NCBI RefSeq assembly: GCF_015291625.1
Contig: NZ_CP030047.1
Coordinates: 7,254,001-7,318,000, forward strand
Length of the DNA stretch: 64,000 bases
DNA from: Bradyrhizobium sp. CCBAU 53421
GTDB taxonomy: Bacteria > Pseudomonadota > Alphaproteobacteria > Rhizobiales > Xanthobacteraceae
Reading direction: 5' to 3'
Every line of letters starts with the position of its first letter. The first letter of the stretch is position 1. A program made the translations under genes and the position numbers. The notes under the pieces were generated by a model. The model was given only the letters and a program-made list of their open reading frames with translations, had not been told where the DNA came from and did no database searches. Positions 1,913 through 38,301 of this stretch are shown one piece after another.

Positions 1913-3028
1913 ATGCTGACAGCCCAGGACGATCTCATCGGCCACCAGACGCCGCAGCCGTTTGCCAAGGCCGGCGGCGGCGATGTCAGGTTCACCGAGC
2001 GCTACTGGTACACCGCGCATCCGATCGACGGCAGCGAGCTGCTGATCGACATCGGGCTCGGCTATTACCCGAACCGCAACGTAATGGACGGCTTTGCCGG
2101 CATCAGCATCGGCCGCCGCCAACACAACTTCCGCGCCTCGCGCCGGCTCGGGACCCGTCCGCTGGAGACGGAAGTCGGCGGGCTCAGGATCGAGATCGTC
2201 GAAGGCAACAGCCTGCACAGGGTCTCGCTCGCCGACAATCCGTCCGGGATCAGCTTTGAGCTCGAATTCAAGGCGAGCTTCCCGGCGGCGCAGGAGAAGC
2301 AGAATTTCCGCGAGCGCAACGGCGTCGTCGAGGAAGACCTCGCGCGCGTCTCGCAATTCGGCCGCTGGCGCGGCTGGATCGTCGCCGACGGCAAGCGCTA
2401 CGAGATCGAGCCGGAACAATGGTGGGGACAGCGCGATCGTTCCTGGGGCCTGCGCTCGGAGATGCGCACCGACGAGACAACGCCGCCGGTCGCAACCCAT
2501 CGCAATTTCTTCTGGACCTGGTCGATGTTCCAGTTCGAGACGTCCGCGCTGTCGATCTTCATCAAGGAGCGCACGCCGGGCAAGCCGCATTACCTCTCCG
2601 GCACCGAGTTCCGCCGCGAGGCCGACGGATCGGTGTCGCATCGCGAGGTGACCTCGGTCGAGCACGCGATCGAATGGGCCGACGATCCGCTCGGCCAGAC
2701 CATCGCGGTGGCCGACTTCACCTTCAGCTTCGAGCGCGGCGAGCCGCGCCGCGTCAGGATGCTGGGATTGCCGACGCGATTTTATCTGAAGGCCGGCATG
2801 TATGGCGGCCTGCAAGGCTGGACCCACGGCGACGACCGCGGCGAGAGCCATGCCGCCCACGACATCTGGAACCTCGACGACGCGGCGACACGCGCCATCG
2901 CTCGGACGCTGTCGGACCATGTCGTCCGGCTCGAAAGCGGCAACGAAACCGGATTCGGCATCAGCGAATACGGCGTCGCCGCCGGCTATCCGCTCTATCC
3001 CGGACCGCAGAAATTCCCGGCGATGTGA
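1913..3028 (+). CDS. conserved protein of unknown function (DUF7064/DUF7065-like)
   Basis: A 371-aa protein with no signal peptide or membrane segment. The motif EQWWGQRDRSWGLR near residue 166 recalls conserved proteins of lipid and terpenoid gene clusters (DUF7064/7065-like, possibly a lipocalin-like beta-barrel); this assignment is from memory. No catalytic residues can be assigned. It lies 54 bp after the binding-protein gene, and its stop overlaps the next start (TGATG at 3026-3030), so the three genes are probably co-transcribed and this one is translationally coupled to the thioesterase gene. Confidence 0.7.
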   Translation: MLTAQDDLIGHQTPQPFAKAGGGDVRFTERYWYTAHPIDGSELLIDIGLGYYPNRNVMDGFAGISIGRRQHNFRASRRLGTRPLETEVGGLRIEIVEGNSLHRVSLADNPSGISFELEFKASFPAAQEKQNFRERNGVVEEDLARVSQFGRWRGWIVADGKRYEIEPEQWWGQRDRSWGLRSEMRTDETTPPVATHRNFFWTWSMFQFETSALSIFIKERTPGKPHYLSGTEFRREADGSVSHREVTSVEHAIEWADDPLGQTIAVADFTFSFERGEPRRVRMLGLPTRFYLKAGMYGGLQGWTHGDDRGESHAAHDIWNLDDAATRAIARTLSDHVVRLESGNETGFGISEYGVAAGYPLYPGPQKFPAM

Positions 3029-3954
3029 TGGACGGGCAAGGCATCCGCGTCGCGGAGGGACATGGCGACACCTGCGATCCGTGGGACGACAAGGCGGCGG
3101 AGGCGCTGGTCTCGCTCGAGACCATCGCGCCGCTGCGCTATCGCAGCCGCTTCGGCGACGGCAATCTCAACGGGCGCTCCTACGGCGGCCAGATCCTTGG
3201 CCAAGCCATGATGGCCGCAACGCTCAGCGCGCCCGAAGATCGCCCGGCGGCGATGCTGCAACTCCTGTTCCTGCGCGGCGCCGATCCTGTCAGGCGCATC
3301 ACGTTTGACGCGGCGGTTCTGCAGGACGGCAAGCGGTTCTCCTCCCGCCATATCCTCGGCAGCCAGGGCGACGGCCGCATCGTGCTGAGCGCGCAGGCCA
3401 CGTTCTGCGCAGCGCAGCCGGGTCCGCGGCACGCAGCGCCGTTTGCACGATCGGAACATCCCGAGAGCCTGCCCGATCTGAGCATGATCCCCGACCGGCT
3501 GATGGCGCAGTTGCGACCGCTCGGTCCGTATTCGCAGCACATCAAGTCCAGCATGGATTTCCGTATCCCCGAGATCGAGCGTCAGCTCTCGGCCGCGACG
3601 GCAGGGCCGCGCCTGCGCTTCTGGATCAGATCCCGCCAGCCGCTCGCCGCCGGTTCCCGCGCCCAGGCCGCGGTGTTCGCCTATCTCTCGGATTGGTGGC
3701 TCAATTTCTCCAGCGTCGGCGGCCATCTCCGCGACCTGCAGTCGCGCGCGCCGCTCTATCTGTCGAGCCTCAACCATTGCATCTGGTTTCACCGCGCATT
3801 CTCGCCCGACGCCTGGATGCATGTCGAAACCGAGAGCCCGTGCGCCGACGGTGGCCGCGGGCTGTCGATCGCCCGCGTCCATGACCGCGATGGGTCGATG
3901 CTCGCGACCTCGATCCAGGAAACCCTGATGGTGCATCCGGACGGTGATGCGTAA
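3028..3954 (+). CDS. acyl-CoA thioesterase II family protein (TesB-like)
   Basis: A 308-aa double-hotdog protein. The early YGGQILGQAMMAA stretch, the DGKRFSSRHILGSQGDGRIVLSAQATF segment, and a C-terminal half with SLNHCIWFHRAF and MHVETESPCADGGRGLSIA are all typical of TesB thioesterases, which hydrolyse acyl-CoA to acid and CoA. The start at 3028 overlaps the preceding stop (TGATG); longer in-frame starts would run into the preceding gene and were not chosen. It probably works with the acyl-CoA synthetase at the window edge. Chain length and substrate cannot be told. Confidence 0.85.
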   Translation: MDGQGIRVAEGHGDTCDPWDDKAAEALVSLETIAPLRYRSRFGDGNLNGRSYGGQILGQAMMAATLSAPEDRPAAMLQLLFLRGADPVRRITFDAAVLQDGKRFSSRHILGSQGDGRIVLSAQATFCAAQPGPRHAAPFARSEHPESLPDLSMIPDRLMAQLRPLGPYSQHIKSSMDFRIPEIERQLSAATAGPRLRFWIRSRQPLAAGSRAQAAVFAYLSDWWLNFSSVGGHLRDLQSRAPLYLSSLNHCIWFHRAFSPDAWMHVETESPCADGGRGLSIARVHDRDGSMLATSIQETLMVHPDGDA

Positions 3955-17134: not shown

Positions 17135-18226
17135 TCAGGAAATGGCCTTCCCTGACGCCTTGTCGAACAAATGCGTTCGCTCGAGGTCGAGCGCGACGTC
17201 GATGACGTGATCCGGCTCCGCGGCAACGCCCACCTGCATTTGCGCGGTGAACGCAGAGCCGGCGACGGTCCCGATCACGAGCGTGTGCGGTCCGAGCGGC
17301 TCCACGTCCTTCACAAGCATGCGGATGTGAGAGCCTTCCGGCGCACCTTGCCGCAATACATGATCGGGCCGCACGCCGAGCACCACGGGCTTGCCGACGC
17401 TTGCTGCATAAGCCGCCTCACGCGACTTCGGCACTCGCAACGCCGTGCCTGATGCCGCGGTGAAGGTCAGCGCGCCGTCGCGGGCGATGATTTCGCCATC
17501 GATGAAGTTCATGCTGGGCGCACCCATGAAGCCCGCGACGAAGAGATTGCTGGGCTTCTCGTAGATCGTGATCGGATCGGCGGCCTGCTCGATCCGGCCT
17601 TTGTTCATCACCACGACGCGATCGGCCATGGTCATGGCTTCGACCTGGTCGTGGGTGACATAAACGATGGTCTTGGCGAGACGGCGGTGCAGCGCCTTGA
17701 TCTCGGTCCGCATCTCGATGCGGAGCTTGGCGTCGAGATTGGACAGCGGCTCGTCGAACAGGAAGACATCCGGGCTGCGCACGATGGCGCGGCCGATCGC
17801 CACGCGCTGGCGCTGCCCGCCGGACAACTGCTTGGGCCGGCGCTGCAAATACTGCTCGAGGTCGAGCACGTGCGCCACGTCACCCACGGCCTTCTCGATG
17901 CTGGCGCGCGATTCGCCGCGCACCTTCATGCCGTAGCCGATGTTCTCGCCGACCGTCATGTGCGGATAGAGCGCGTAGTTCTGGAACACCATCGCGCAGT
18001 TGCGCAGGCCGGGACGCAACTGCGTCACGTCGCGGTTGCCGATCCGGATAGTCCCGCTGGTGACGGCCTCCAGTCCCGCGATCATGCGCAACGTCGTGGT
18101 CTTGCCGCAGCCGGACGGGCCGACCAGCACGACAAACTCCTCGTCGGCCACCTTGAGGTCGAGCCCTTCGATGATCTTGTAGGGTCCGTATGCCTTGCTG
18201 ACGTTCTCGATCTCGACGTGCGCCAT
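17135..18226 (-). CDS. carbohydrate ABC transporter ATP-binding protein (CUT1, UgpC/MalK type)
   Basis: A 363-aa ATPase. Walker A is GPSGCGKT (residues 36-43), the Q-loop lies in MVFQNYALYPHMTVGENIGYGMKVRG, the ABC signature LSGGQRQR is at 134-141, and Walker B is DVFLFDEPLSNLD. After residue ~235 a C-terminal OB/TOBE regulatory domain typical of MalK/UgpC appears (VVLGVRPDHVL). It drives the two permeases and binding protein encoded just upstream, and is the last gene of the eight-gene operon that starts with deoC. Confidence 0.92.
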   Translation of the reverse strand: MAHVEIENVSKAYGPYKIIEGLDLKVADEEFVVLVGPSGCGKTTTLRMIAGLEAVTSGTIRIGNRDVTQLRPGLRNCAMVFQNYALYPHMTVGENIGYGMKVRGESRASIEKAVGDVAHVLDLEQYLQRRPKQLSGGQRQRVAIGRAIVRSPDVFLFDEPLSNLDAKLRIEMRTEIKALHRRLAKTIVYVTHDQVEAMTMADRVVVMNKGRIEQAADPITIYEKPSNLFVAGFMGAPSMNFIDGEIIARDGALTFTAASGTALRVPKSREAAYAASVGKPVVLGVRPDHVLRQGAPEGSHIRMLVKDVEPLGPHTLVIGTVAGSAFTAQMQVGVAAEPDHVIDVALDLERTHLFDKASGKAIS

Positions 18227-18310
18227 GGAGTCCTTTTCCGTCCCTTCGTCGACGGCTGGTCAAAATCCCGGATGACGCGCGTGCATCGTCCGGGACGTCT
18301 CACTCGAAAG

Positions 18311-19771
18311 CTAGTTCTTGGGCGGCAGGCCCATCGCCGCGCGATAGGCGGCAAGCTGCTTGGCCCGGCCGAACTCGTCGGTCAACCGATTCCACTCCTT
18401 CGCCATCGCGTCGAGCGCCGCCTGCGGCGTGGTCTGGCCGGCCAGTGCCTTGCCGAGCTCGATCTCCACGACCTCGGTGTAGGAGAAGTAGCCGGGCAGA
18501 CGCATGTCGAGCGCGACGTTCTTGGCGTTGATGGAGTCCGATTGCGCGCCGAGATATTCCTTGGCCTCTTCCGGCGAGAAGATCTTGCTCCACAGTTGCA
18601 GGTTGGCGGTGTGCGATTTGCGGTAGGGATTGACGCCGCTGCCGCCGGTGATCGCCGCCTGGCCCGACACTTCAGGACTTGTCAGTGTCTTGACGAAATC
18701 CCACGCCGCCTGCTGGTTCTTGCCGGCCTTCGGCACCGCGATCTGCCAGCCGCCGAACGCCATGAACGGGCCCGGAAGCACGCTCGGGAACTTGTCCCAC
18801 TTCTTGGTCTTGGCGTTCCAGATCTCGTCCGAGCCGGGCAGCATCGCCGAGCCGACCTTGCCCGAGATCTTCGACTGCTTCGGGTCGGCGGCGATGACGC
18901 CGGTGTCGCCCCAGCCGATCGATTCCGCCACCTGGCCGCCGGCCACCGCCGCGTTCACCTCACCGAACGAGAAGTTCAGCGCATTGGGCGGCCCGAGCTT
19001 CGATGCGCGGATGTATTCCTCGAGCCCCTTCACCCAGCCCGGGTTGTTGATCTGCGCGTCCATCGTCTCGGGGTCGAAGAACATCGCGCCCGGATAGTTC
19101 GGATTGTTCGCGTAGGCCGCCGCATGGCTGAAGAAGAACCAGAATTGCTGACCGCCGCGGCGGAAGGCCTCCGCCGTTCCCCACAGGCCCTTGTCGGGCC
19201 GCTGGAAGAACTCCGCAATGTCGAGATATTGCTTCCAGGTCTTCGGCGGAGCGAGGTCGTAGCCGTATTTGGCCTTGAAGGCGTCCTTCTCCTTGGGATC
19301 GCTGAACAGGTCGGTGCGGTAGGTATAGGTGTGGACGTCGCCATCCATCGATTGCGAATAGATCTTGCCCTCCCACACCATCAGGCGTTCGCGATAGGCC
19401 GGCTCGATATCGTCCCAGTCCTTGCCGGACTGCATTTCCTTCGGCATCTCGCTGAGGTAGGGCACGAAATCCGGCAGCCAGGCCGGCGCAAAGCTGACGA
19501 GATCGAACGTCGCGTCCGACGCCGTGAGCGATGTCGCGATCTTCGGATAGAGCTCGGACCAGGGAAACTCGACGACATTGACCTTGCCGCAGGTCTTCTT
19601 GGCCCATTCGTCGGCGCCAAGCTTGAGCGCGGAGGCGATATAAGGTCCGGTCTGCGACGCCACCGTCAGGGTGACGCCGGTGTAATCCGGACTGCAGGCA
19701 GCGTTCGCCTGGCTCGCGGCGCAGGCCATCGCGAGCGAGGTGGTCAGCATCAGGAACGTCCGTCGCAACAT
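18311..19771 (-). CDS. carbohydrate ABC transporter substrate-binding protein (CUT1, family 1)
   Basis: A 486-aa periplasmic receptor with a signal peptide (LRRTFLMLTTSLAMACAASQANA, cut near NA/ACS). It is longer than MalE-type proteins (~400 aa) but has family-1 features: GVTLTVASQTGPYIASAL, ATSLTASDATFDLVSFAPAWLPDFVPYLSEM, and FGGWQIAVPKAGKNQQAAWDFVKTLTSPE. It captures a sugar for the permeases upstream and lies 28 bp downstream of the permease stop at 19800. In this locus the ligand could be deoxyribose or a nucleoside (inference). Confidence 0.9.
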   Translation of the reverse strand: MLRRTFLMLTTSLAMACAASQANAACSPDYTGVTLTVASQTGPYIASALKLGADEWAKKTCGKVNVVEFPWSELYPKIATSLTASDATFDLVSFAPAWLPDFVPYLSEMPKEMQSGKDWDDIEPAYRERLMVWEGKIYSQSMDGDVHTYTYRTDLFSDPKEKDAFKAKYGYDLAPPKTWKQYLDIAEFFQRPDKGLWGTAEAFRRGGQQFWFFFSHAAAYANNPNYPGAMFFDPETMDAQINNPGWVKGLEEYIRASKLGPPNALNFSFGEVNAAVAGGQVAESIGWGDTGVIAADPKQSKISGKVGSAMLPGSDEIWNAKTKKWDKFPSVLPGPFMAFGGWQIAVPKAGKNQQAAWDFVKTLTSPEVSGQAAITGGSGVNPYRKSHTANLQLWSKIFSPEEAKEYLGAQSDSINAKNVALDMRLPGYFSYTEVVEIELGKALAGQTTPQAALDAMAKEWNRLTDEFGRAKQLAAYRAAMGLPPKN

Positions 19772-19799
19772 CGTCTAGTCCTCCCTACAAGGTTTTTTG

Positions 19800-20837
19800 C
19801 TATTTGATGGCCCCGAGCAGCAGGCCCGACCGCATCATCCGGCTGAGCAGACCCGCCATGATCATCATGGGAACGATGGCCACGAGCGCCGCAGCCGAGA
19901 TCGCCCACCATTCATCGCCGCGTTGGCTGTTCTGTCCCGCCACCAGGATCGGCAGCGTCTGCCATCTGGAATTGGTCAGGAACAGCGCGAACAGGAACTC
20001 GTTCCAGACGAAGGCCAGCGTGATCATGAACGTCGCCAGCAGCCCGTTCATCGACATCGGCACCACGATGCCGATGAAGATGCGCCAGCTCGGCACATTG
20101 TCGACCATCGCCGCCTCCTCGACCTCGATCGGGATCGCCTCGAAGAAGTCGCGCATCAGCCAGACCACGATCGGCAGCGAGAACGCGACGTAGCACAGCG
20201 TCAGGCCGACGAAACTGTCGATCAGCTGGAAGCCCAGCCGGCCGATCTCGCTGTAGAGCAGATACAGCGCGAAGGCCGTCACGATCGGCGGGAACATACG
20301 CTGGCTGACGAACCAGAACAGGATGTCCTCATTGCCGAGGATCGGTCCGGGCAACGGCAGACGATTGGCGACGACAGCGGCGAGCAGCGCGATTGGAAAG
20401 GCGAGCAGCAATGCCTGCGGCCGGGTGAACCCGAACGTCGCGTTGAAGAGCAGATAGCCGCCGAGCGCGAACAGGAAGAACACGAGGCCCGCACCGAGGC
20501 GGACCTTGAACTCGAACCGCACGAGCGCATAGGCCGCCATCGCGCCGATCGCGGTGGCGATCGCCGCCGCAGACAGACCGACGATGGTCGAGTTCAGGAA
20601 GGTGCGGAAGAACTCGCCGCGAATCCCCTGGTAGAGATCGATGAACGGCTGCAAGGTCGGCGTGAAGTCGATGAACGGCAGATAGGTCGGTCCGCCGACG
20701 ACGCCCGGCGGCGTCTTGAACGCGGTCACGACCACCCAATAGAGCGGAAACACCGTGATCAGGCACCAGAGGAGAACGCCGAGCGCGACCAGACGGCGGC
20801 TCCATGGCGACAGTCCGGTCAGCCCCTGCCCGCTCAT
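19800..20837 (-). CDS. carbohydrate ABC transporter permease (CUT1, MalG/UgpE type)
   Basis: A 345-aa inner-membrane permease with the EAA loop EEAAMVDNVPSWRIFIGIVVPMS near residue 240. Hydrophobic segments include LVALGVLLWCLITVFPLYWVV (N-terminal), a middle pair around LGAGLVFFLFALGGYLLF and ALLLAFPIALLAAVVA that is unusual for the family and makes it ~60 residues longer than typical MalG-type proteins, and the C-terminal LVAIVPMMIMAGLLS. The ATG at 20837 overlaps the stop of the partner permease (ATGA), so the two are translationally coupled. Confidence 0.88.
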   Translation of the reverse strand: MSGQGLTGLSPWSRRLVALGVLLWCLITVFPLYWVVVTAFKTPPGVVGGPTYLPFIDFTPTLQPFIDLYQGIRGEFFRTFLNSTIVGLSAAAIATAIGAMAAYALVRFEFKVRLGAGLVFFLFALGGYLLFNATFGFTRPQALLLAFPIALLAAVVANRLPLPGPILGNEDILFWFVSQRMFPPIVTAFALYLLYSEIGRLGFQLIDSFVGLTLCYVAFSLPIVVWLMRDFFEAIPIEVEEAAMVDNVPSWRIFIGIVVPMSMNGLLATFMITLAFVWNEFLFALFLTNSRWQTLPILVAGQNSQRGDEWWAISAAALVAIVPMMIMAGLLSRMMRSGLLLGAIK

Positions 20838-21709
20838 CGGCGCTTCTCCAGATGCGGCCGCAGCAGCGCCAGATAGGTGACGCCGATGATCGTGATCGCG
20901 ATCAGGAACAGGAAGCTGAGCGCCGATGTGTAGCCGAGATTGAACTTCTTGAAGCCTTCCTGGTAGGCGAACAATGTCAGCGTCTCGGTGTCGACGCCCG
21001 GCCCGCCGCCGGTCATCACGAACACCGTGTCCATGATCTTGTAGCTCTCGATCAGGCGGATGAAGACGACCGCAGCCGAGATCGGCAGCATCATCGGAAA
21101 GGTGATGCCCCAGAACTGCTGCCAGGCACTGGCATTCTCGAGCTCCGCGGCCTCGTAGACGTCTTCGGGAAGCGTCTGCAGGCCGGCCAGCATCATCAGG
21201 ATCACGAACGGGGTCCACTGCCAGACCTCGACCGCGATGATGCAGGCGAGCGCCCAATGCCCGTTGGTGAGGAACGGCAGGTTGACCAGACCGAACTTCG
21301 ACAGGAACTGGTTGAGCGGCCCCATGGTCGGGTTGAACATCATGCGCGCCACCAGCGCGACCGCGACGGGCGCCAGCAGCATCGGCAGCAGCAAGGCAAC
21401 GCGAAACAGCCGCTCGCCCGGCACCCGCGCGTTCAACGCCAAGGCGACACCGAAACCGATCGCGTATTGCAGCCCGACCGCGATGAAGGCGATCAGCGTC
21501 GTCGTGAAGAGCGCACTCCAAAAACGCGGCTCCTGCAGCAGCGTGGCATAATTGCCGAGCCAGACGACGCGCGGCGGGATAGGCGGAATCAGGCGATAGC
21601 TCAGGAAGCTCGTGGTGAGCGAATAGATCAGCGGAAAGATCGAGATCGCCAGCACGACGAGCACCGCCGGCCAGATGAAGACATGCTTGATCGGATCGTT
21701 CCGCATCAT
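20834..21709 (-). CDS. carbohydrate ABC transporter permease (CUT1, MalF/UgpA type)
   Basis: A 291-aa permease of six membrane segments, starting MMRNDPIKHVFIWPAVLVVLAISIFPLIYSL. The EAA loop is DVYEAAELENASAWQQFWGITFPMM near residue 185, and the FVMTGGGPGVDTETLTLFAYQEGF stretch is typical of this subunit. It forms the membrane channel with the downstream permease, with which it overlaps by 4 bp, and lies 7 bp after the PfkB kinase gene. Confidence 0.9.
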   Translation of the reverse strand: MMRNDPIKHVFIWPAVLVVLAISIFPLIYSLTTSFLSYRLIPPIPPRVVWLGNYATLLQEPRFWSALFTTTLIAFIAVGLQYAIGFGVALALNARVPGERLFRVALLLPMLLAPVAVALVARMMFNPTMGPLNQFLSKFGLVNLPFLTNGHWALACIIAVEVWQWTPFVILMMLAGLQTLPEDVYEAAELENASAWQQFWGITFPMMLPISAAVVFIRLIESYKIMDTVFVMTGGGPGVDTETLTLFAYQEGFKKFNLGYTSALSFLFLIAITIIGVTYLALLRPHLEKRR

Positions 21710-21716
21710 CGCGCGG

Positions 21717-22640
21717 TCATCCCTTCAACAGCGCGTCGATCTCCGCACGCCGCGGCATCGCGGGCGCGGTGCCCGGTCGCGTCACCGAGATTCCGGCCGT
21801 GGCCGAGCCGAACCGTGCAGCCTCGAGCGGATCGGCGCCGTCAGCGAGCGCCGCCGCAAAGCCGCCGACGAAAGCATCGCCCGCGCCGGTGGTTTCGACC
21901 ACCTTGCCGGCGGCGAACGGCGGCACATGCAGCGAGCGGTCCCGCGCATGAAACAAGGCGCCGCGCTCGCCGAGCGTGATCAGCGCCGTTCCGGCGCCTT
22001 TCGCCAGCAACGCGTCGCCGGCGCGGCGGGCGCCGGCGAGATCGCCGACCGCGATGCCGGTCAACCCTTCGGCCTCGGTTTCGTTGGGAACGACATAATC
22101 GCAGAGCGCAAACAGGCTGCTATCGAACTTGATGGCCGGCGCTGGATTGAACACGGTGATGCTGCCGGCGGCGCGCGCGATCTCGAGCCCGCGCCGCGCC
22201 GCATCGACCGGCTGCTCGAGCTGCGTCACGAACACGCTGGAGTCGCGTATGGCGTCCGCCACCGCGTCGACATCGGCCGTACCGATGCCGCCCGCCGCAC
22301 CCGGCACCACGATGATCGCGTTGTCGCCGCGCGTCTCGTGGACATAAATGAATGCCGCGCCGGTCGGCGCATCCGCGGTCCTCGCCACGCGCGGCCGGAT
22401 TCCCTCGGCCTCCCAGGTCTTGATCGCAAGCTCGCCAAAGGCGTCGCTGCCGATCCGGGAGATGAAGCTCACACTGGCGCCGGCCCGTGCGGCCGCGACA
22501 GCCTGGTTGGATCCCTTGCCGCCGGGCCCCATCGCGAATCCCGATCCGGCGATGGTCTCGCCGATCGCCGGCATGTTGCCGGCGCGGAACGCGAGGTCGA
22601 CGACGAAGACGCCGAGGACGGCGACGCCATTCTTGCTCAT
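21717..22640 (-). CDS. PfkB-family sugar kinase (ribokinase/deoxyribokinase-like)
   Basis: A 307-aa kinase. The N-terminal GPGGKGSNQAVAAARAG (near residue 40) and the C-terminal VVETTGAGDAFVGGFAAAL, with the catalytic Asp in GAGD, are the two PfkB signatures in their ribokinase form. Ribokinase and deoxyribokinase (DeoK) share this fold and cannot be told apart by eye. Because deoC, a DeoR homologue and an RbsD/FucU gene are in the same locus, 5-phosphorylation of 2-deoxyribose is the favoured reaction, with ribose as the alternative. It lies 4 bp after the RbsD/FucU gene. Confidence 0.85.
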   Translation of the reverse strand: MSKNGVAVLGVFVVDLAFRAGNMPAIGETIAGSGFAMGPGGKGSNQAVAAARAGASVSFISRIGSDAFGELAIKTWEAEGIRPRVARTADAPTGAAFIYVHETRGDNAIIVVPGAAGGIGTADVDAVADAIRDSSVFVTQLEQPVDAARRGLEIARAAGSITVFNPAPAIKFDSSLFALCDYVVPNETEAEGLTGIAVGDLAGARRAGDALLAKGAGTALITLGERGALFHARDRSLHVPPFAAGKVVETTGAGDAFVGGFAAALADGADPLEAARFGSATAGISVTRPGTAPAMPRRAEIDALLKG

Positions 22641-22644
22641 GTCG

Positions 22645-23100
22645 TCACTCCCCGTCCGGCGCGATGACGCCCTTGCTGAACAGGAAGCAGCCGTAGAAGC
22701 GTCGCTCGCCGGTCGCGATCACGCAATAGGCTGCCTTGGCCTTCTCGTAGAACGCATGGCGCTCGACACCCACCAGCGGCCAGGACCGTCCCTCGGCGCG
22801 ATCGATCGCGGCCTGCACCTCGCGCTGCACGGGCGGCACTTCCTGCGGCTGTCCGACAATCTCCATGCGGATCGCGGCGTCGTCGACGAAGGTATCGAGC
22901 GGCATCACCGAGAGAACGGCTTCGACCGCCTTGGCGGCGCTTACATTGTCTATGCGCAGCAGCCTGCCGAGCGCGCTCTGGCGCGCGATCGAGTCGGCCG
23001 GAAAATTGGTATCGCATACCACCAGGCGATCACCGTGCCCCATCGCCCGCAGGGCGTAGAGCACGTCGGCATTGAGCAGTGGATCGATGCCTTTCAGCAT
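22645..23100 (-). CDS. RbsD/FucU-family sugar mutarotase
   Basis: A 151-aa protein. The start LKGIDPLLNADVLYALRAMGHGDRLVVCDTNFPADS is the RbsD/FucU signature with its conserved His and Asp, and the C-terminal RRFYGCFLFSKGVI closes the fold. The family interconverts anomers of ribose, fucose and similar sugars, usually as a decameric ring. Length and the GHGD form favour FucU over RbsD. In this operon it would supply the kinase with the correct anomer (inference). Confidence 0.87.
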   Translation of the reverse strand: MLKGIDPLLNADVLYALRAMGHGDRLVVCDTNFPADSIARQSALGRLLRIDNVSAAKAVEAVLSVMPLDTFVDDAAIRMEIVGQPQEVPPVQREVQAAIDRAEGRSWPLVGVERHAFYEKAKAAYCVIATGERRFYGCFLFSKGVIAPDGE

Positions 23101-23182
23101 GTTTGCGTCCCTCCCTTGTCTTCAAGATCGCCGGACTCTGGCGGTCCGGATCCTTATTCCCTATCACCGCAAGGTGACGCCC

Positions 23183-25570
<2,388 letters not shown>

Positions 25571-25580
25571 CGCTGGAGTC

Positions 25581-26609
25581 TCATCCCACGGGGTGGCGGT
25601 TGAAAGCCGAGTAGTGGCCGGTCACGTGATGCTCGAGCTGCCGCTCGATGTCGGCGAGCAGGCTGGAGGCGCCGATGCGGAACAGATCCGGCTCGAGCCA
25701 GTCGCGTCCCAGCTCCTCCTTCATCAGGAACTGGTAGTTGAGCACATCCTTTGCCGTCGAGATTCCGCCGGCCGGCTTGAAGCCGATCTTGTAGCCGGTG
25801 CGCTCCTGATAGAGGCGGATCATCCGCAGCATCGCCAGCGTCACCGGCAGCGTCGCGTTGACGCCTTCCTTGCCGGTGGAGGTCTTGATGAAGTCGGCGC
25901 CGGCCATCATGCAGACCATCGAGGCCTTGGCGACATTGCGCAGCGTCTTGAGGTCGCCGGTGGCCAGGATCGTCTTCAGATGCGCGTTGTCGCAGACCGC
26001 GCGGAAATCCCGCACCTCGGCGTAGAGCGCCCGCCAATCGCCGGTCAGCACGTGCTCGCGCGTGATGACGATGTCGATCTCCTGCGCGCCGTCGCGAACC
26101 GATGCTTCGATCTCCTTCAACTTCAGCTCGTGCGGCACGAGGCCTGCGGGAAACCCGGTCGAGACCGCGGCGACCGGGATGCCGGATCCATCGAGCGCTT
26201 CGACAGCGGTGCCGACGAAGCGATGGTAGACGCAGACCGCTCCGGTATGCAGCCCGCGCCCGGCAAAGCCGAGCCGCTCGAGAAGATCGCCGCGCACCGG
26301 CGCCCTGGCCTTGGCGCAGAGGCGCTTGACCCGCTCGGCCGTATCGTCGCCATTGAGCGTCGTCAGGTCGATGCAGGTGATCGCTTTGAGCAGCCACGCC
26401 GCTTGCGCGTCCTTCTTGACGGTGCGCCGGCCCGGCAGGCTCGCGACACGCCGTTCGGCGGCCGACAGATTGATCCTGATCTCGTCGAGCCAATCCATCT
26501 CGAGCGCGCGGCCGCTGTTGCGCGGAAGCGGATGCAAATGCTCGCCGCCCGGGGAAGGCGATTGCACGGCCAAAGGCGACGGATTCTGGATGAAGACGCT
26601 CTGCGTCAT
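25581..26609 (-). CDS. deoC: deoxyribose-phosphate aldolase
   Basis: A 342-aa class I aldolase splitting 2-deoxyribose-5-phosphate into glyceraldehyde-3-phosphate and acetaldehyde. The Schiff-base lysine is in FIKTSTGK (K242), the proton-relay residues are in EIDIVI (D179) and the later FKPAGGI. It has an ~80-residue N-terminal extension relative to the short E. coli enzyme, like many long bacterial and animal DERAs. ATG 26609 (MTQSVFIQNP) is chosen because upstream codons run through the regulatory region. It is the first gene of the operon and is divergent from deoR. Confidence 0.92.
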   Translation of the reverse strand: MTQSVFIQNPSPLAVQSPSPGGEHLHPLPRNSGRALEMDWLDEIRINLSAAERRVASLPGRRTVKKDAQAAWLLKAITCIDLTTLNGDDTAERVKRLCAKARAPVRGDLLERLGFAGRGLHTGAVCVYHRFVGTAVEALDGSGIPVAAVSTGFPAGLVPHELKLKEIEASVRDGAQEIDIVITREHVLTGDWRALYAEVRDFRAVCDNAHLKTILATGDLKTLRNVAKASMVCMMAGADFIKTSTGKEGVNATLPVTLAMLRMIRLYQERTGYKIGFKPAGGISTAKDVLNYQFLMKEELGRDWLEPDLFRIGASSLLADIERQLEHHVTGHYSAFNRHPVG

Positions 26610-26761
26610 GGCGGCGCCGTGCGGTCCTAGCGAATCGAGGAGGTGGGCAGATAGATTGAATGTGTCGATCGCAACATGTGATCCTCCCCTGACCTTGCTG
26701 CTGGGCTTGCCGACCGCCTGAGGAACGACACCCCAACGCTCGATCAGCCCGCTGGACTGGA

Positions 26762-26777
26762 TGTTATTATTGTAACA
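26762..26777. promoter_or_regulatory. DeoR operator candidate in the deoC-deoR intergenic region
   Basis: TGTTATTATTGTAACA has the TGTTA-N6-TAACA arms of the E. coli DeoR operator (TGTTAGAATTCTAACA). It lies 152 bp upstream of deoC and 69 bp upstream of deoR. A weaker relative, TGATA-N6-CAACA at 26787-26802, starts 25 bp further on. The surrounding DNA is strikingly AT-rich for this genome, as expected of a divergent promoter. Confidence 0.75.
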
Positions 26778-26846
26778 AATCGACGTTGATAAACTCACAA
26801 CATTGTAAGATCATTGTCAATCGGATAAGCAAGCCCGGCGATCAAA

Positions 26847-27641
26847 ATGGCTGAAACCTCGAACGCACGACCAAGCGAGACACGCGTCCAGCGCCTGCAG
26901 AGGCTGCGCCGAGCCGTGGAATCGAGTGGCGCGCTGCATCTGAAGGACGCCGCCGAGCTCCTGAAAGTTTCTGAAATGACGGTGCGGCGCGACCTTGCCG
27001 GTCCGGAGGCCGCCCTCGCTTTGCTCGGCGGCTACGTCGTCAATGCGGCGTCGCCGACCGGCATCAAGTACACGTTCGAGCAGGAGATCGACCAGCACAC
27101 CCAGGACAAGCGTCTCGCCTGTCGGGCTGCCGCGGCCTCGATCAAGGAAGGCGACACGATCTTCATCGACTGCGGCACCACGATGCAGTCGCTGGCGGAC
27201 TGCCTGCCCGAGGATCTGCCGCTCTCGGTGATCTGCTATTCGATGAACGTGGCCTCGATCGTGACGCGACGGCCGGCCACGCAGGTGATGCTGATGGGCG
27301 GGCTCTATCATCCCTCGTCGCAATCCTTTGCGTCCGACGACGGGCTGTCCTATCTGCGGCGGCTCGGCATCAACAAGGCCTTCATCTCCGCCGGTGGCGT
27401 GCACTGGACCCGCGGCGCGAGCTGCTCGAATTTTCACGAGGTCGCCGTCAAGCAGGCCGTGATCGAGACCGCGATGGAGAGCATCCTGGTGATCGACGCG
27501 AGCAAGCTCGGCAGCCTCAAATCGGCATTCTTCTCCGATATCGGCGCGTTCTCGCGGATCATCGTCGGCGGCGCGGCGTCAGCGGATATGCGTAAGCACT
27601 TCCGCAGCCTTCCCGTCGAGTACGTGACCAACGCAACCTGA
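26847..27641 (+). CDS. deoR: DeoR-family repressor, close to E. coli DeoR
   Basis: A 264-aa regulator. The N-terminal HTH, LHLKDAAELLKVSEMTVRRDL, is nearly the same as that of E. coli DeoR, and so are LLGGYVV, IFIDCGTTMQSL, VICYSMN and GVHWTRGASCSNFHE-VAVK. This is closer to DeoR itself than to the many generic family members. DeoR represses deoxynucleoside genes and is released by deoxyribose-5-phosphate. The gene is divergent from deoC with an operator-like palindrome between them, so it probably represses both flanking operons and itself (inference). Confidence 0.9.
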   Translation: MAETSNARPSETRVQRLQRLRRAVESSGALHLKDAAELLKVSEMTVRRDLAGPEAALALLGGYVVNAASPTGIKYTFEQEIDQHTQDKRLACRAAAASIKEGDTIFIDCGTTMQSLADCLPEDLPLSVICYSMNVASIVTRRPATQVMLMGGLYHPSSQSFASDDGLSYLRRLGINKAFISAGGVHWTRGASCSNFHEVAVKQAVIETAMESILVIDASKLGSLKSAFFSDIGAFSRIIVGGAASADMRKHFRSLPVEYVTNAT

Positions 27642-27672
27642 TCCGAGCGGGGGCTGGCACGCCCGGATCAGG
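27637..27672. terminator. bidirectional hairpin between convergent deoR and rbsB-like genes
   Basis: CCTGATCCG (27637-27645) pairs exactly with CGGATCAGG (27664-27672) around an 18-nt GC-rich interior that can pair further. It begins inside the deoR stop codon and lies ~50 bp from the stop of the gene converging on it. No long T run is present, so strength is uncertain. Confidence 0.55.
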
Positions 27673-27721
27673 CTGCTCACGATGCGCGGGCTCGCGGGAC
27701 CACGCACCGAACTCAAGCGAC

Positions 27722-28873
27722 TCAGTTACAGGCAGGCTTCGCCTTGTTGCAGGCGTCGGTCAGCTCCGGCGGCGGCTCCTTCTTGAACACCGTCTTGTAG
27801 GATTCCAGCACGTTCGACTGCGTCACTGGCAGCGACTGCACGCCGACCCAGGCCGGTGTTTCCTTGCCGAGCAGCGCGTTCATCATGGCCATTGCTTCGG
27901 CGACGCCCTGGTCATAGGGACGCTGCGACCCCGTCGCCTTCAAGGGACCGCCCTTGGCGATCTCGATCGCCGATTGCAGGCCGAGGTCGACGGTCGTGAC
28001 CGGAACGTCGATGCCCTGTGCGCGCATCGAGCTCAGCGTATCGAGCGCCGGCTGATCCCAGACCGCGAACACGCCCTTGACGTCCGGATTGCCGGTGAGG
28101 AAGTCGCCCGCGATCTGCGACACCTTCGGCGGATCGGTGAAGTCGACCTGCTTCATCTTGATGTCGGGACGGTTCTTCTGCATCCAGTCGCGGACGCCCT
28201 TGGTGCGTTCGTTGGTGCTGAAATAGTCGACGCCGAAATTGACCAGGCCGATGGTACCGCCCTGCGGCATGCAGGAGGCCAGGATCTGGGCCGCGATCTG
28301 GCCGTTGCCCAGATTGTCCGCCGAAATCATCGAGGCGTATTCCTCGGGATGCTTGAGGCCGGTCGGAATGCTGTCCATCAGCACCAGCTTGATGCCGGCC
28401 TTGGCGACCTTCTTGTAGGTCGGCGCGGTCGCCGTGAAATCGACCGGGATCGAGATGATGCCGTCCGGATGCTGCTGGATGGTGTTCTCGATGTCGGCGA
28501 TCTGCTTGTCGACCTGATATTCGGCGGACGCAACACCAGTCACGGTCACGCCATACTTCTTCAGCGTGTCGGTGATGCCCTGGATCTGCAACTGCGCCCA
28601 ATCGAGGTTGACGGTCTGCATGGAGATGCCGACCTTGAAGTGCTTCTCCTTGACCTTGGCGGCGTCGGCGTCCGACAGCGCGAGCACCTCGGGCGACGCG
28701 GCCTTCTCGCCGTGCGGCCCTTGTCCGACGATGGATTTCGGTCCAAGCGTCGCGAGATCGACGCCCTTGACGCAGGTGGCCGGCACCTCGGCGCGCGCCG
28801 CGGGGGCGATCGAAATCGCTGTCGCCGCGATCAGCGCGGTCAGCGGCAGGGTTTGTCGCAAGATTGGCTTCAT
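27722..28873 (-). CDS. sugar ABC transporter substrate-binding protein (CUT2, RbsB-like)
   Basis: A 383-aa periplasmic receptor with a signal peptide (LPLTALIAATAISIAPAARA, cut before EVP). The Peripla_BP_4 body starts at residue ~75 (FKVGISMQTVNLDWAQLQIQGITDTLKKYG) and includes PDGIISIPVDFTATAPTYKKVAKAGIKLVLMDSIP and the hinge region VFAVWDQPALDTLSSM. An extra N-terminal ~45-residue segment with a cysteine (PATCVKGVDL) pairs with a Cys-containing tail (LTDACNKAKPACN). The ATG at 28873 follows GGGAGGAAACA. It is the last gene of the CUT2 operon. Confidence 0.9.
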   Translation of the reverse strand: MKPILRQTLPLTALIAATAISIAPAARAEVPATCVKGVDLATLGPKSIVGQGPHGEKAASPEVLALSDADAAKVKEKHFKVGISMQTVNLDWAQLQIQGITDTLKKYGVTVTGVASAEYQVDKQIADIENTIQQHPDGIISIPVDFTATAPTYKKVAKAGIKLVLMDSIPTGLKHPEEYASMISADNLGNGQIAAQILASCMPQGGTIGLVNFGVDYFSTNERTKGVRDWMQKNRPDIKMKQVDFTDPPKVSQIAGDFLTGNPDVKGVFAVWDQPALDTLSSMRAQGIDVPVTTVDLGLQSAIEIAKGGPLKATGSQRPYDQGVAEAMAMMNALLGKETPAWVGVQSLPVTQSNVLESYKTVFKKEPPPELTDACNKAKPACN

Positions 28874-28947
28874 TGTTTCCTCCCTTTTTTGGTCGCCGAT
28901 TGACCGGAGGCCGGCGACCTTGCCCCTACAACTTTCCGGATCGTGCT

Positions 28948-29940
28948 CTAGCGTTTGGTGAAGGCGACCGCGGCGACGATGATCGCTCCCTTGATGACGA
29001 GCTGCATCGGCGAGCTGACGCCGAGCAGCACGAGGCCGTTGTTGAGCGTGCCGATGATGAGGCTGCCGAACAGCGTCCCGAGAATGTAGCCGCGGCCGCC
29101 GAACAGACTGCAACCGCCGAGGATCACGGCGGCGATGACGTCGAGCTCCATCCCCTGCACGACGTCGGGCCGCGCTGCGTGCGAGCGCGCGGACAGCACC
29201 AGCGCCGCAAGCCCAGCCAGCGCGCCGGTCAGCACAAAGGCTGCGGTCGTCACCCATTTGGTGTTGATGCCGGAATACAGCGCCGCGGTCGGATTGCCGC
29301 CGACCGCATAGATACGACGGCCGAACACGTTGTAGTGCAGCAGCAGGATGCCGACGATCATCGCCACCAGCGTCCAGGCAATCGGAACCGGGATGCCTAG
29401 GAACGTGCCTTCGCCGAAGATCGCGAAATAGGTCTCGTTGGTGATGATGACAGGCTTGGTGTTGGTGACCATCATCGCCAGCCCCCGCGCCATGCTCAGC
29501 GATCCCAGCGTGACCAGGAACGAGGGGATCGAAAGCTGCGTAGTCAGGATGCCGTTGAGCAGCCCGACCAGCGCGCCGGTTCCGAGCCCGGCGGCGGCGC
29601 CGACGATCCAGCTGTTGCTGATCTGGCTCATGGCGAGCGCAGCCGCCATGCCCGACAGCGCCAATGTCGATGCGACCGACAGATCGATCTGACGTGCGAT
29701 GATCACGAAGGTCATGCCGACCGCGATGATCGACACCAGCGTGGTCTGGCGTCCGATGTTCAGGAAATTGTCGACCGACAGGAACCAGGGCGAGGACAGG
29801 CTGAACACGACCAAGAGCACGACGAAGGCGATGTACAGCATGTAGGGCCGCTCGCCGCGCAGCAGATTCTGCAAGAGCTTGCGGCGACGGTCGGATCGGG
29901 TCGACGCGGCGACGACATTGGGCGCGGTTAGTTCAGTCAT
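28948..29940 (-). CDS. sugar ABC transporter permease (CUT2, RbsC-like)
   Basis: A 330-aa inner-membrane permease with 8-10 hydrophobic segments. VGMTFVIIARQIDLSVASTLALSGM is the characteristic RbsC stretch, and LDVIAAVILGGCSLFGGRGYILGTLFGSLIIGTLNNGLVLLG is the conserved C-terminal one. It forms the channel for the binding protein encoded downstream, powered by the ATPase encoded upstream; its start overlaps the ATPase stop by 4 bp. Confidence 0.92.
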   Translation of the reverse strand: MTELTAPNVVAASTRSDRRRKLLQNLLRGERPYMLYIAFVVLLVVFSLSSPWFLSVDNFLNIGRQTTLVSIIAVGMTFVIIARQIDLSVASTLALSGMAAALAMSQISNSWIVGAAAGLGTGALVGLLNGILTTQLSIPSFLVTLGSLSMARGLAMMVTNTKPVIITNETYFAIFGEGTFLGIPVPIAWTLVAMIVGILLLHYNVFGRRIYAVGGNPTAALYSGINTKWVTTAAFVLTGALAGLAALVLSARSHAARPDVVQGMELDVIAAVILGGCSLFGGRGYILGTLFGSLIIGTLNNGLVLLGVSSPMQLVIKGAIIVAAVAFTKR

Positions 29941-31517
29941 GCGGGCTGCTCTTGCAATACGCCTTGTCCGGAAGCCTGGTAGATCTGCAGGAGATGATGG
30001 AGCTCTTCGGCATCAACGATCTCGCCCCGCACAAGCGTTCGCGCCACGCGTCCATCGACGATCACGGAGATGCGGTCACAGAGTTCGATCAGTTCGACGA
30101 GATCCGAGGAGACGATCAGCACGCCGCTGCCGTCGCGGGCGGCATTGCGGATCACGCCGTAGATTTCCTCGCGGGCGCCAACGTCGACGCCGACCGTCGG
30201 CTCGTCCAGCAGCAGCACGCGCGGCTGCGGATCATTCCATTTTCCGAACACGACCTTCTGCTGGTTGCCGCCGGACAACGTCCGGACCAGGCTGGAAGCG
30301 CCTTGCGCTTTCACCGAAAGCCGCGCGACCGCAGCGTCGGCGCGCCTGATGGCGGCGCGTTGCTGCAAAAAGCCCCAGCGCGAGAAATGCGGAATCCGCG
30401 GCAGAGTGATGTTGCGTTCGATCGAATGATCGAGCACGAGGCCCTGCACATGCCGATCCTCCGGCACCAGCGCGACGCCCAGTTCGATCGCATCCGCCGC
30501 GCTCTTCGGCAGCCATGGCCGGCCCTCAATCTCGAGCGTGCCGCTCTCGGCCGGCCGAAGTCCGAAGATCGTCTCGAGAATCTCCGTGCGCCCGCTGCCG
30601 ATCAATCCGGCAAGGCCATGGATCTCGCCTTTCATCACCGATAAGTCGACGGCCGACAGCCGGTCATTTGACACACCCGACAGGGAGAGAACCGGCGATG
30701 AATCGAACGAGCGCGCTGCGGCGGGCGCGGCCCGCGACGCCGCCGGTGCCAATCGATCGGTGCCGATAATGGCGTTCACCAGCCGTTTCATATCGGTATC
30801 GGCGGTGACGAACGTGCCGGCGTTGGCGCCGTCGCGCAGCACGGTGACGCGCTGCGATATCTCGAACACCTCGTTGAGCCGATGGGTCACATAGATCACG
30901 CCGACGCCGCGGCGCGTCGCCTTGCCGATCGCATCGAACAGGATGCGGACCTCATCCGACGTCAGCGAGGATGTCGGCTCGTCGAGGATCAACAGCCGCA
31001 CCTCGCCCATCAGCGCCTTGGCGATCTCGGTCATCTGGCGGTAGGCGAACGGCAGCGAGCCGACCGTCGCCTTGGTATCGAGGGGAATGCCGAGCTCGCT
31101 CAGGAACGTCTCGGCCCTGGCCATCAGCTCGCGCTTCCGGACAAAGCCGAACCGCGCGCGCGGCTCGCGGCCGAGCAGCAGATTGTCGGCGACGCTCAGG
31201 GACTCGACGAGGCTGAGGTCCTGATAGACGACAGCGATCCCCGCCTCGCGCGATCTTGCCGGGCTGTCGAACGTCGCCGGTTTGCCGGCGATCTCGATCG
31301 TCCCGCTGTCGGCGGCATGAACACCGCTGAGGATCTTGATCAGCGTGGATTTTCCGGCGCCGTTTTCGCCCAGCAGCGCGTGCACCTCGCCGGAGACGAC
31401 CTCGAGGTTGACGTCGCGCAGCGCGCGCACGCCGCCGAAGCGCTTGTTGATGCCACCGACCGTCAAAAGCGACGCCGACGGCCGAGGCTCTGCCGCGATC
31501 GAACCGGACAATTCCAT
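29937..31517 (-). CDS. sugar ABC transporter ATP-binding protein (CUT2, RbsA-like)
   Basis: A 526-aa protein with two ATPase halves. The first has Walker A GENGAGKST (near residue 53) and a signature-like VGSLPFAYRQM. The second has the CUT2-typical degenerate P-loop GLIGSGRTE but keeps the strong signature LSGGNQQKVVFGKW and Walker B LLLDEPTVGVDVG. It is the first gene of a three-gene operon (ATPase, permease, binding protein). DeoR-like operators lie 47-83 bp upstream of its start, so this importer probably belongs to the deo regulon. Confidence 0.92.
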   Translation of the reverse strand: MELSGSIAAEPRPSASLLTVGGINKRFGGVRALRDVNLEVVSGEVHALLGENGAGKSTLIKILSGVHAADSGTIEIAGKPATFDSPARSREAGIAVVYQDLSLVESLSVADNLLLGREPRARFGFVRKRELMARAETFLSELGIPLDTKATVGSLPFAYRQMTEIAKALMGEVRLLILDEPTSSLTSDEVRILFDAIGKATRRGVGVIYVTHRLNEVFEISQRVTVLRDGANAGTFVTADTDMKRLVNAIIGTDRLAPAASRAAPAAARSFDSSPVLSLSGVSNDRLSAVDLSVMKGEIHGLAGLIGSGRTEILETIFGLRPAESGTLEIEGRPWLPKSAADAIELGVALVPEDRHVQGLVLDHSIERNITLPRIPHFSRWGFLQQRAAIRRADAAVARLSVKAQGASSLVRTLSGGNQQKVVFGKWNDPQPRVLLLDEPTVGVDVGAREEIYGVIRNAARDGSGVLIVSSDLVELIELCDRISVIVDGRVARTLVRGEIVDAEELHHLLQIYQASGQGVLQEQPA

Positions 31518-31563
31518 CCTCCTCCCGTCGCCCGCGCGAGACGCTGATGCGATGATGACATCA

Positions 31564-31600
31564 TGTTATTTTTGCAACTTATTGTGTTATAATTCTATCA
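31564..31600. promoter_or_regulatory. two DeoR operator candidates upstream of the CUT2 importer operon
   Basis: TGTTATAATTCTATCA (31585-31600) matches the E. coli DeoR operator at 14 of 16 positions. A weaker site, TGTTATTTTTGCAACT (31564-31579), matches at 10 of 16 and starts 21 bp away, about two helical turns. Both lie 47-83 bp upstream of the RbsA-like start in an AT-rich patch. Confidence 0.75.
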
Positions 31601-31771
31601 CATCGGGCGACCTGTCAATGGGAGATCACGCCGTCAGGCGCTCGATTTGGGGGCAGCCGGTCGCGATCAGGCCCGACACACGCCACCGGCCTCCCCATGC
31701 ACAATGGAAGCCGGCAAGTTGTGCTACGCTGCAGTCGCTCATCTCATCAAAGCCAACGCCGGTGCATCACG

Positions 31772-37089: not shown

Positions 37090-38301
37090 TCACCCTCTAT
37101 ACGGCGTAACTATGAGATCACGATTGACAAGAACACGGACCGGGAAGCCAGGCCGCACGGTCAGAGTAGGCTGGATGTTGAGACTGCGTCGAACCACCTG
37201 CTGTCCGGTTTGGTTTAGTGAGTCGGAGGCGCCGTGTCGCAACGCCTGGATGATGGCGCTGTCGTTGCTATTGGTGTCCGAGCCAGCCCCTAGTTCGGTC
37301 CCGACCGCCAGAAACGTCGATAGTGCCGCAGCCTTGAATAGCTCTGTCCAGTGATTGTCGACTTGGTCTTCCAGACCCGCATAGCCAGCGCTATCAGCGC
37401 CAGGCTGCCGCTCGAGAACGATAGAATGTCCATTCGGCATAATCAGCCGCGTCCAGACCAGTAGGACACGGGACTGGCCGAAAGTAACTTGACTATCGTA
37501 CGTGCCGATCAGACGCGCTCCCTGAGGCACAAGCAGAAAGCGGCCGGTCGGCGTGTCAAAAACATTCTCGGTGACCTGCGCGGTAATTTGGCCTGGCAGG
37601 TCCGATCGGATCCCGGTAGTCAGGGCTGCCGGAATGACCGTCCCAGCCTGCACGACATATGGTGAAGCCGGCTTGGTGATGCGGTCGGGGCTGACCGTGC
37701 GACGGTCCACAGAAGCATTCACGAAGGCAAGCTTTCGGTCTTGACCGTTCTGCGCAAATCCGTCGTCGCCAGTGCTCGATAAGTTCGGCGACGCGACGCG
37801 GTCGCCTTCAACAGCCGCAGCGGCAGGCGGACGTCCTTCTCCTCCCTTGGTCGCAGCGAACAAATGGCTAATGCGGGCGGCCTCGGTCTCCTGGTCCCGG
37901 CGCTGCTGTTCCGCATCAGGCCCGATCGCCGGCGACTGGCCTTGGGCAGCAAGGATTGGCCGACCGAGGTCGCCAGGGAGTGGCGGACCAAGCTGCGGGA
38001 TTGGCTGGCGCGGAACGCCAGCATAGTCCTTCGGCAGCGTCGTAAGGCCGTCGGCAACATTGTGATGGTCAGTGCTGTAGAGTTCCTCGGCCGCCTGGTT
38101 TCGGGGACGATTGTTCTGCAGCGACCACAGGACTGCTCCACCAATGACAAAGAAGGCAAGCGCGCTCCCTCCGGCCAGGACTTTTCGCGACAACCGTGTC
38201 ACGCGCGGATGCTCCGCTCTCAGTCGGAAGCTTTTGGACTGCTCCTCTTGTGTCTCCGGCGAATCTGCTTGCTCGTGATCGTTTCCACTCCGGCTGTTCA
38301 T
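37090..38301 (-). CDS. trbI: conjugal transfer protein TrbI (VirB10-like)
   Basis: A 403-aa protein with a cytoplasmic N-terminus, one membrane anchor (LAGGSALAFFVIGGAVLW, near residues 43-60), a Pro-rich periplasmic stretch, and a C-terminal VirB10/TrbI domain (SPYVVQAGTVIPAALTTGIRSDLPGQITAQVTENVFDTPTG; RLIGTYDSQVTFGQSRVLLVWTRLIMPNG). It spans inner to outer membrane in the type IV channel. It overlaps trbG by 4 bp. Confidence 0.93.
   Translation of the reverse strand: MNSRSGNDHEQADSPETQEEQSKSFRLRAEHPRVTRLSRKVLAGGSALAFFVIGGAVLWSLQNNRPRNQAAEELYSTDHHNVADGLTTLPKDYAGVPRQPIPQLGPPLPGDLGRPILAAQGQSPAIGPDAEQQRRDQETEAARISHLFAATKGGEGRPPAAAAVEGDRVASPNLSSTGDDGFAQNGQDRKLAFVNASVDRRTVSPDRITKPASPYVVQAGTVIPAALTTGIRSDLPGQITAQVTENVFDTPTGRFLLVPQGARLIGTYDSQVTFGQSRVLLVWTRLIMPNGHSIVLERQPGADSAGYAGLEDQVDNHWTELFKAAALSTFLAVGTELGAGSDTNSNDSAIIQALRHGASDSLNQTGQQVVRRSLNIQPTLTVRPGFPVRVLVNRDLIVTPYRG

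Follow-up and report, generated by a model that had tools for sequence, protein, structure and literature searches.

A putative DeoR regulon for 2-deoxyribose uptake and breakdown in Bradyrhizobium and the pairing of ALDH16 with long-type DeoC

Organisation of the locus

The DNA considered here is a 64,000-nucleotide stretch (the window) of the 9.26 Mb, single-contig genome of Bradyrhizobium sp. CCBAU 53421, taken from positions 7,254,001 to 7,318,000 of contig NZ_CP030047.1 and with a G+C content of 63%. It holds a deo locus with a DeoR-like repressor, which is predicted to govern the uptake and breakdown of 2-deoxyribose. A minus-strand run of eight genes, from 17135 to about 26609 in window coordinates, comprises deoC, an ALDH16-type dehydrogenase, a mutarotase, a ribokinase-like kinase and a four-gene CUT1 importer. 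The deoR-like gene diverges from deoC and, past it, three genes of a CUT2 importer are read leftward (27722-31517). The gene and family calls agree with an earlier sequence-only reading of this DNA, which had described an eight-gene operon headed by deoC and divergent from a repressor, together with a separate CUT2 importer operon; the assignment of the dehydrogenase to the ALDH16 type is an addition to that reading.

17135..18226, minus strand: CUT1 importer ATPase, MalK/UgpC type (NF008653, 476.7 bits, cut-off 432)
18311..19771, minus strand: CUT1 solute-binding protein (SBP_bac_1; PDB relatives weak only)
19800..20837, minus strand: CUT1 permease 2, 345 residues (BPD_transp_1; frame checked)
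20834..21709, minus strand: CUT1 permease 1 (BPD_transp_1)
21717..22640, minus strand: PfkB-family kinase, probable deoxyribokinase, its substrate presumed (TIGR02152, 298.3 bits, cut-off 299.65)
22645..23100, minus strand: RbsD/FucU-type sugar mutarotase (PF05025, 129.3 bits)
23183..25570, minus strand: ALDH16-type two-part aldehyde dehydrogenase, 795 residues (full-length match to PDB 6mvr, 1017.5 bits; active-site Cys motif NQGQVCCAGSR)
25581..26609, minus strand, start predicted: deoC, long-type deoxyribose-phosphate aldolase, 342 residues (TIGR00126, 140.2 bits, cut-off 117.3)
26847..27641, plus strand: deoR-like repressor (NF007961, 208.7 bits; next family 98.9)
27722..28873, minus strand, start predicted: CUT2 solute-binding protein (Peripla_BP_4; frame and PDB relatives checked)
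28948..29940, minus strand: CUT2 permease (PF02653)
29937..31517, minus strand: CUT2 ATPase, double domain (family matches)

The probable start of deoC is position 26609. For the CUT2 binding protein, translation probably begins at about 28873 and not at the start of the 511-residue open reading frame that contains it. DeoC scores above the cut-off of TIGR00126 and, in an alignment, conserves the positions of D102, K167 and K201 of the E. coli enzyme, which are its catalytic Asp/Lys/Lys. The kinase falls just below the cut-off of the ribokinase family TIGR02152 and is described here as ribokinase-like.

The repressor and its putative operators

NF007961, the DeoR equivalog, is the closest named family for the repressor, with a score more than 100 bits above that of the runner-up, and the sole PDB match is 7l6l, 'Deoxyribose operon repressor'. 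The helix region of the protein, HLKDAAELLKVSEMTVRRDL, has HLKDAAALLGVSEMTIRRDL as its counterpart in E. coli DeoR. The recognition helix VSEMT(I/V)RRDL is common to the two proteins, which are 33% identical overall, bearing out the closeness of the helix-turn-helix to that of E. coli DeoR that had been proposed. The effector and operator of DeoR are described in passages of PMC5326754. At the level of sequence, palindromes resembling the E. coli operator pattern, TGTTAGAATTCTAACA, lie at the promoters of the predicted targets. This pattern was used for scanning, along with its palindrome form TGTTA-N6-TAACA, which has 10 arm bases.

26762..26777, no strand: putative DeoR operator in the deoC-deoR gap, TGTTATTATTGTAACA (10/10 arm bases; 13/16 to the E. 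coli operator)
26787..26802, no strand: possible weak second DeoR site (2 mismatches; missing in part of the genus)
31585..31600, no strand: putative DeoR operator before the CUT2 operon, TGTTATAATTCTATCA (14/16; spans a candidate -10 hexamer)
31564..31579, no strand: weaker DeoR site before the CUT2 operon, TGTTATTTTTGCAACT (21 bp from the 31585 site)
26815..26820, minus strand: candidate -35 of the deoC operon, TTGACA (invariant in 33 aligned sequences)
31589..31618, minus strand: candidate CUT2-operon promoter, TTGACA-18-AATTAT (10/12 consensus matches; TTGACA invariant in 32 aligned sequences)

The sequence-only reading had placed a palindrome between deoC and the repressor and a 14/16 match, with a weaker site nearby, before the CUT2 genes; all three are found, the first with every arm base intact. 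Across the whole window only the 26762 and 31585 sites lie within three mismatches of TGTTAGAATTCTAACA (shuffle expectation 0.01), and they are two of just four such places in the genome. The other two places were rejected as DeoR sites, both being inside open frames of at least 100 codons. Applied to E. coli as a positive control, the scan recovered two sites ahead of deoC, separated by 599 bp. The genome has ten places within one mismatch of the palindrome arms, the two window sites among them; another, at genome position 6386278 (1501-1516 of record L001), is a perfect-arm site, TGTTAATTGATTAACA, that lies outside any open reading frame of at least 100 codons and has a core unlike that of the deo sites.

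Conservation within the genus

A DeoR gene is present in 35 of 195 genomes of the genus, the source genome included, and the other 34 (L052-L085) were compared with the window. The order ALDH gene-deoC-deoR is kept in 32 of them (L052-L083), with the contigs of L056, L064 and L065 ending early. L084 retains the CUT1 operon, deoC and deoR, the sole CUT2 match adjoining its deoR being an ATPase of 34% identity, and its sites are different and weaker; L085 has a partial deoR and no deoC. All ten arm bases of the deoC-side palindrome are found in 31 of 32 relatives, L077 having one change. On the CUT2 side, 30 of 31 relatives have a site identical to that of the window, with one change in L071 and the sequence of L056 stopping short of the site. 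In the alignment upstream of the CUT2 genes the 31585 and 31564 sites rank first and second of 225 16-mers for conservation; in the deoC-deoR gap the 26762 site ranks 6th of 325 and the possible weak site at 26787 ranks 43rd. Loss of the motifs from close relatives with the same gene order, which the sequence-only reading had named as evidence that would count against it, is not seen.

The putative operator beyond the genus

The DeoR model gave matches in 17 of 297 genomes of the order (E 1e-45). In all 15 new order-level loci deoC is at most 311 bp from deoR; the two genes diverge in 14 of the loci and share a strand in L100. The deoC of 12 of these loci is distant, with 29-33% identity to that of the window, and in 11 of the 12 the nearby CUT2 ATPase has no more than 38-41% identity to that of the window; two of these short deoC genes, when scanned, both proved to belong to TIGR00126. 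Together with seven loci that have a DeoR homologue among the ALDH16 loci described below (best 80 of 590), these make 22 loci outside the genus. TGTTA-N6-TAACA, with at most one mismatch, occurs directly before deoR in 17 of the 22, against a shuffle expectation of 0.15, and in 4 of 1271 control tiles from the same loci. The proposed search of related genomes for the motif close to deoR homologues thus gives a positive result both within the genus and outside it.

Since the 17 loci include ones with the other type of DeoC and another importer, the putative operator appears to follow the regulator: it travels with the repressor gene and not with any single gene set. It is also, as predicted from the sequence, common to alpha-, beta- and gammaproteobacteria, in line with the conservation across distant proteobacterial classes that had been claimed. 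The sites of the Variovorax locus (L145) are poor, in that the arms fit, yet 7 of 16 bases differ from the E. coli operator. Sites are found before deoC in the Burkholderia (L116) and Caballeronia (L193) records. Five scanned loci have no visible DeoR homologue (L116, L119, L123, L189 and L191), and of these L116 alone carries a site close to deoC. One repressor-operator pair would therefore seem to have been kept over three proteobacterial classes while the neighbouring enzymes and importers were exchanged. In L087, a deo locus with a short DeoC, a 360-residue protein (2464-3546) is encoded between the kinase and CUT2 genes and gave no match to an NCBIfam model at E 1e-10.

ALDH16 and long-type DeoC

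Residues 1-794 of the aldehyde dehydrogenase align to residues 2-766 of 6mvr, with two Aldedh stretches, while the best PDB chain outside the 6mvr protein reaches 377 bits over residues 47-488 only. The alignment also places the catalytic cysteine in its motif. We take 6mvr, the record name of which is only 'Aldehyde dehydrogenase', to be LsALDH16, and the protein of the window shares with LsALDH16 both the full-length two-part architecture and the catalytic cysteine. The structure of LsALDH16, from Loktanella, is treated in PMC8160307, a review that in the portions available gives the structure and makes no mention of deoxyribose or an operon; here, in contrast, the gene context supplies a pathway.

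Named genomes were scanned for ALDH16 loci, and the best 80 of 590 candidates span many phyla, among them Acidobacteria, Gemmatimonadetes, Chloroflexi and a genus of Bacteroidota. In 78 of these 80 loci the ALDH16 gene has a long-type deoC match upstream on its own strand, in 70 of them within 200 bp, and in 77 of the 80 a deoC match covers at least 35% of the query. The two loci with no upstream deoC are both from Anaerolinea, with 1.6 and 1.1 kb of upstream DNA; the stretch in the first is long enough that an adjacent deoC should be visible, and this locus may be a true exception to the gene pair. A second survey covered 398 genomes of the phylum drawn independently of ALDH16 similarity, with a strict threshold and two candidates scored per genome, such that a distant ALDH16 without deoC could escape it. 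It gave 45 ALDH16 genes in 44 genomes (E 1e-200) and 46 long deoC genes (at least 60% identity) in 45 genomes, all other deoC matches being at most 44% identical. In 44 of the 45 cases the ALDH16 gene comes directly after a long deoC, at a median distance of 40 bp and at most 830 bp; the 45th, in G298, starts 179 bases from the first base of its contig. The sole genome with a long deoC and no strong ALDH16 match, G830, has a deoC with an internal stop, adjoined by a diverged ALDH16 (48% identity over residues 3-502 in a 780-residue frame). Across the genomes surveyed, the genes for ALDH16 and long-type DeoC thus occur as a pair almost without exception.

The DeoC reaction releases acetaldehyde, and therefore the simplest role for ALDH16 is to oxidise it, which it probably does. 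By a modest balance of judgement we favour a wider proposal, in which bacterial ALDH16 would be the dedicated partner of the long DeoC (DERA) subfamily, oxidising its acetaldehyde, perhaps by direct transfer; animal ALDH16A1 would then have its origin in a deoxyribose-phosphate pathway and may have retained the ability to bind DERA or enzymes of nucleotide salvage. In the sections of PMC10650815 available, human ALDH16A1 is listed with substrate unknown, as a pseudoenzyme, and is linked to gout and HPRT1. No paper joining ALDH16 to deoxyribose was found in the open-licence literature, judged mostly by title, nor, by title in the same literature, any on DeoR or a deoxyribose regulon in rhizobia, neither of which is proof of absence. 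ALDH16, a structurally known enzyme, thus gains an obvious partner and pathway, and the question of its natural substrate becomes directly testable.

A probable regulon for free 2-deoxyribose and its alternatives

Gene content, the positions and conservation of the operators, the overlap of one of them with a candidate promoter, the catalytic positions of DeoC and the closeness of deoC to deoR in all 15 order-level loci, even where DeoC itself is distant, support the single regulon for uptake and breakdown that had been put forward, and we regard it as highly probable that the DeoR-type repressor runs such a regulon for free 2-deoxyribose. With the sugar absent, DeoR would occupy the operators that lie between deoC and deoR and across the CUT2 -10. 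After import, deoxyribose would be interconverted by the mutarotase and phosphorylated by the kinase, if that is its substrate, to deoxyribose-5-phosphate, which DeoC would split into glyceraldehyde-3-phosphate and acetaldehyde. ALDH16 would turn the presumed substrate acetaldehyde into acetate, and deoxyribose-5-phosphate, as the likely effector, would release DeoR from its predicted sites. The sugars assigned to the importers are likewise predictions. Neither the thymidine phosphorylase family TIGR02643 (deoA) nor the phosphopentomutase family TIGR01696 (deoB) has a match in the genome and, since the locus does have a kinase and a mutarotase, free deoxyribose is the likelier substrate, more so than deoxynucleosides, in agreement with its earlier designation as the simpler one.

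Several observations weigh against this picture. The repressor does not reach the 244-bit cut-off of NF007961 and is accordingly DeoR-like, not filed as an equivalog; that cut-off is exceeded in none of the 297 order genomes. The motif is not enriched genome-wide, with 4 places against 15 for the reversed control at up to three mismatches, and 10 against 78 for the looser palindrome (arms, at most one mismatch), so that the case for the operators rests on the position of the sites and their conservation. A minus-strand promoter scan found no good -10 for the candidate deoC -35. In five of the 22 outside loci the region immediately ahead of deoR holds no close site. Two of them, L151 and L193, carry one with perfect arms in front of deoC, L169 has one with a single mismatch 81 bp beyond its deoR match, and in L100 a one-mismatch site falls between deoC and deoR; the 22 kb of L115 contain none. 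The presence of two importers for a single sugar is left unexplained by the regulon model, and four PNP_UDP_1 proteins are encoded elsewhere in the genome, so some nucleoside cleavage is possible, with nucleoside hydrolases (PF01156) not searched.

The last two points would suit a deoxynucleoside regulon, in which one importer brings in deoxynucleosides, deoxyribose is liberated by a nucleosidase encoded elsewhere and reaches DeoC by way of the kinase, two importers matching two substrate forms; in Gaetbulibacter (L133), moreover, deoD comes next after deoC-ALDH16. Against this, family matches identify no nucleoside-cleaving enzyme among the genes of the locus, and with no genomic match to deoA or deoB the product of phosphorolysis could not be converted by the known DeoB. 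We consider this explanation unlikely. Another aldose, be it ribose or a different deoxy sugar, could be the substrate, with a different phosphate as the effector of DeoR, in keeping with the family-level similarity of the kinase and CUT2 genes to ribose and arabinose systems and with a PDB search in which neither importer's solute-binding protein had a close relative among solved structures. The DeoC family, though, acts on 2-deoxyribose-5-phosphate, deoC adjoins deoR in all 15 order-level loci and the kinase falls just under the ribokinase cut-off, making such a substrate highly improbable.

It is also conceivable that DeoR controls the deoC operon and itself only, and that another regulator of the same family binds at the CUT2 promoter, given that counterparts of the window's CUT2 genes are absent from the side of deoR in L091, L097 and L100 and that L084 has only the weak ATPase match nearby. 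The CUT2 site, in contrast, has the same motif, is among the four closest matches to the E. coli operator in the genome and is almost invariant in the genus over a candidate -10, and this division of control seems very unlikely.

Comparison with known systems

The predicted single regulon for free deoxyribose resembles the E. coli deo regulon (DeoR, deoCABD, nupG, tsx) in its homologous repressor, the same palindrome, deoC as a target and multiple operators. It differs in having no match to deoA or deoB and instead a kinase, a mutarotase, ALDH16 and two ATP-binding cassette (ABC) importers; deoR, which in E. coli is elsewhere in the genome, is here within the locus and divergent from deoC, and DeoC is of the long type. 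The enterobacterial deoK operon combines a kinase and an aldolase for free deoxyribose with the permease DeoP and the repressor DeoQ. A kinase/aldolase route is also important for growth of Paraburkholderia bryophila and B. phytofirmans on deoxyribose, according to the portions of PMC6365646 available; the likeness drawn here to the present locus is one of function, and that text, figures left out, makes no mention of aldehyde dehydrogenase, ABC or DeoR. As a regulon this is a variation on a known type, and the link to ALDH16 is the interesting part.

A leader open reading frame and neighbouring genes

One further feature lies ahead of deoC.

26627..26677, minus strand: 16-codon leader open reading frame (Shine-Dalgarno-like sequence ahead; stop 17 nucleotides before the deoC ATG)

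Its length and stop are kept in 33 of the 34 genus relatives (L052-L084), the 34th, L085, being the one without deoC. By eye, the deoC ATG has no clear Shine-Dalgarno sequence of its own, and the leader may couple translation to deoC; the substitutions within it are, again by eye, not concentrated at third codon positions and a coding role is not supported.

About 5.5 kb from the regulon, at 37090-38301, the window encodes a TrbI/VirB10-type conjugation protein. Given this protein and the occurrence of DeoR in 35 of the 195 genus genomes, transfer of the regulon between genomes is possible.
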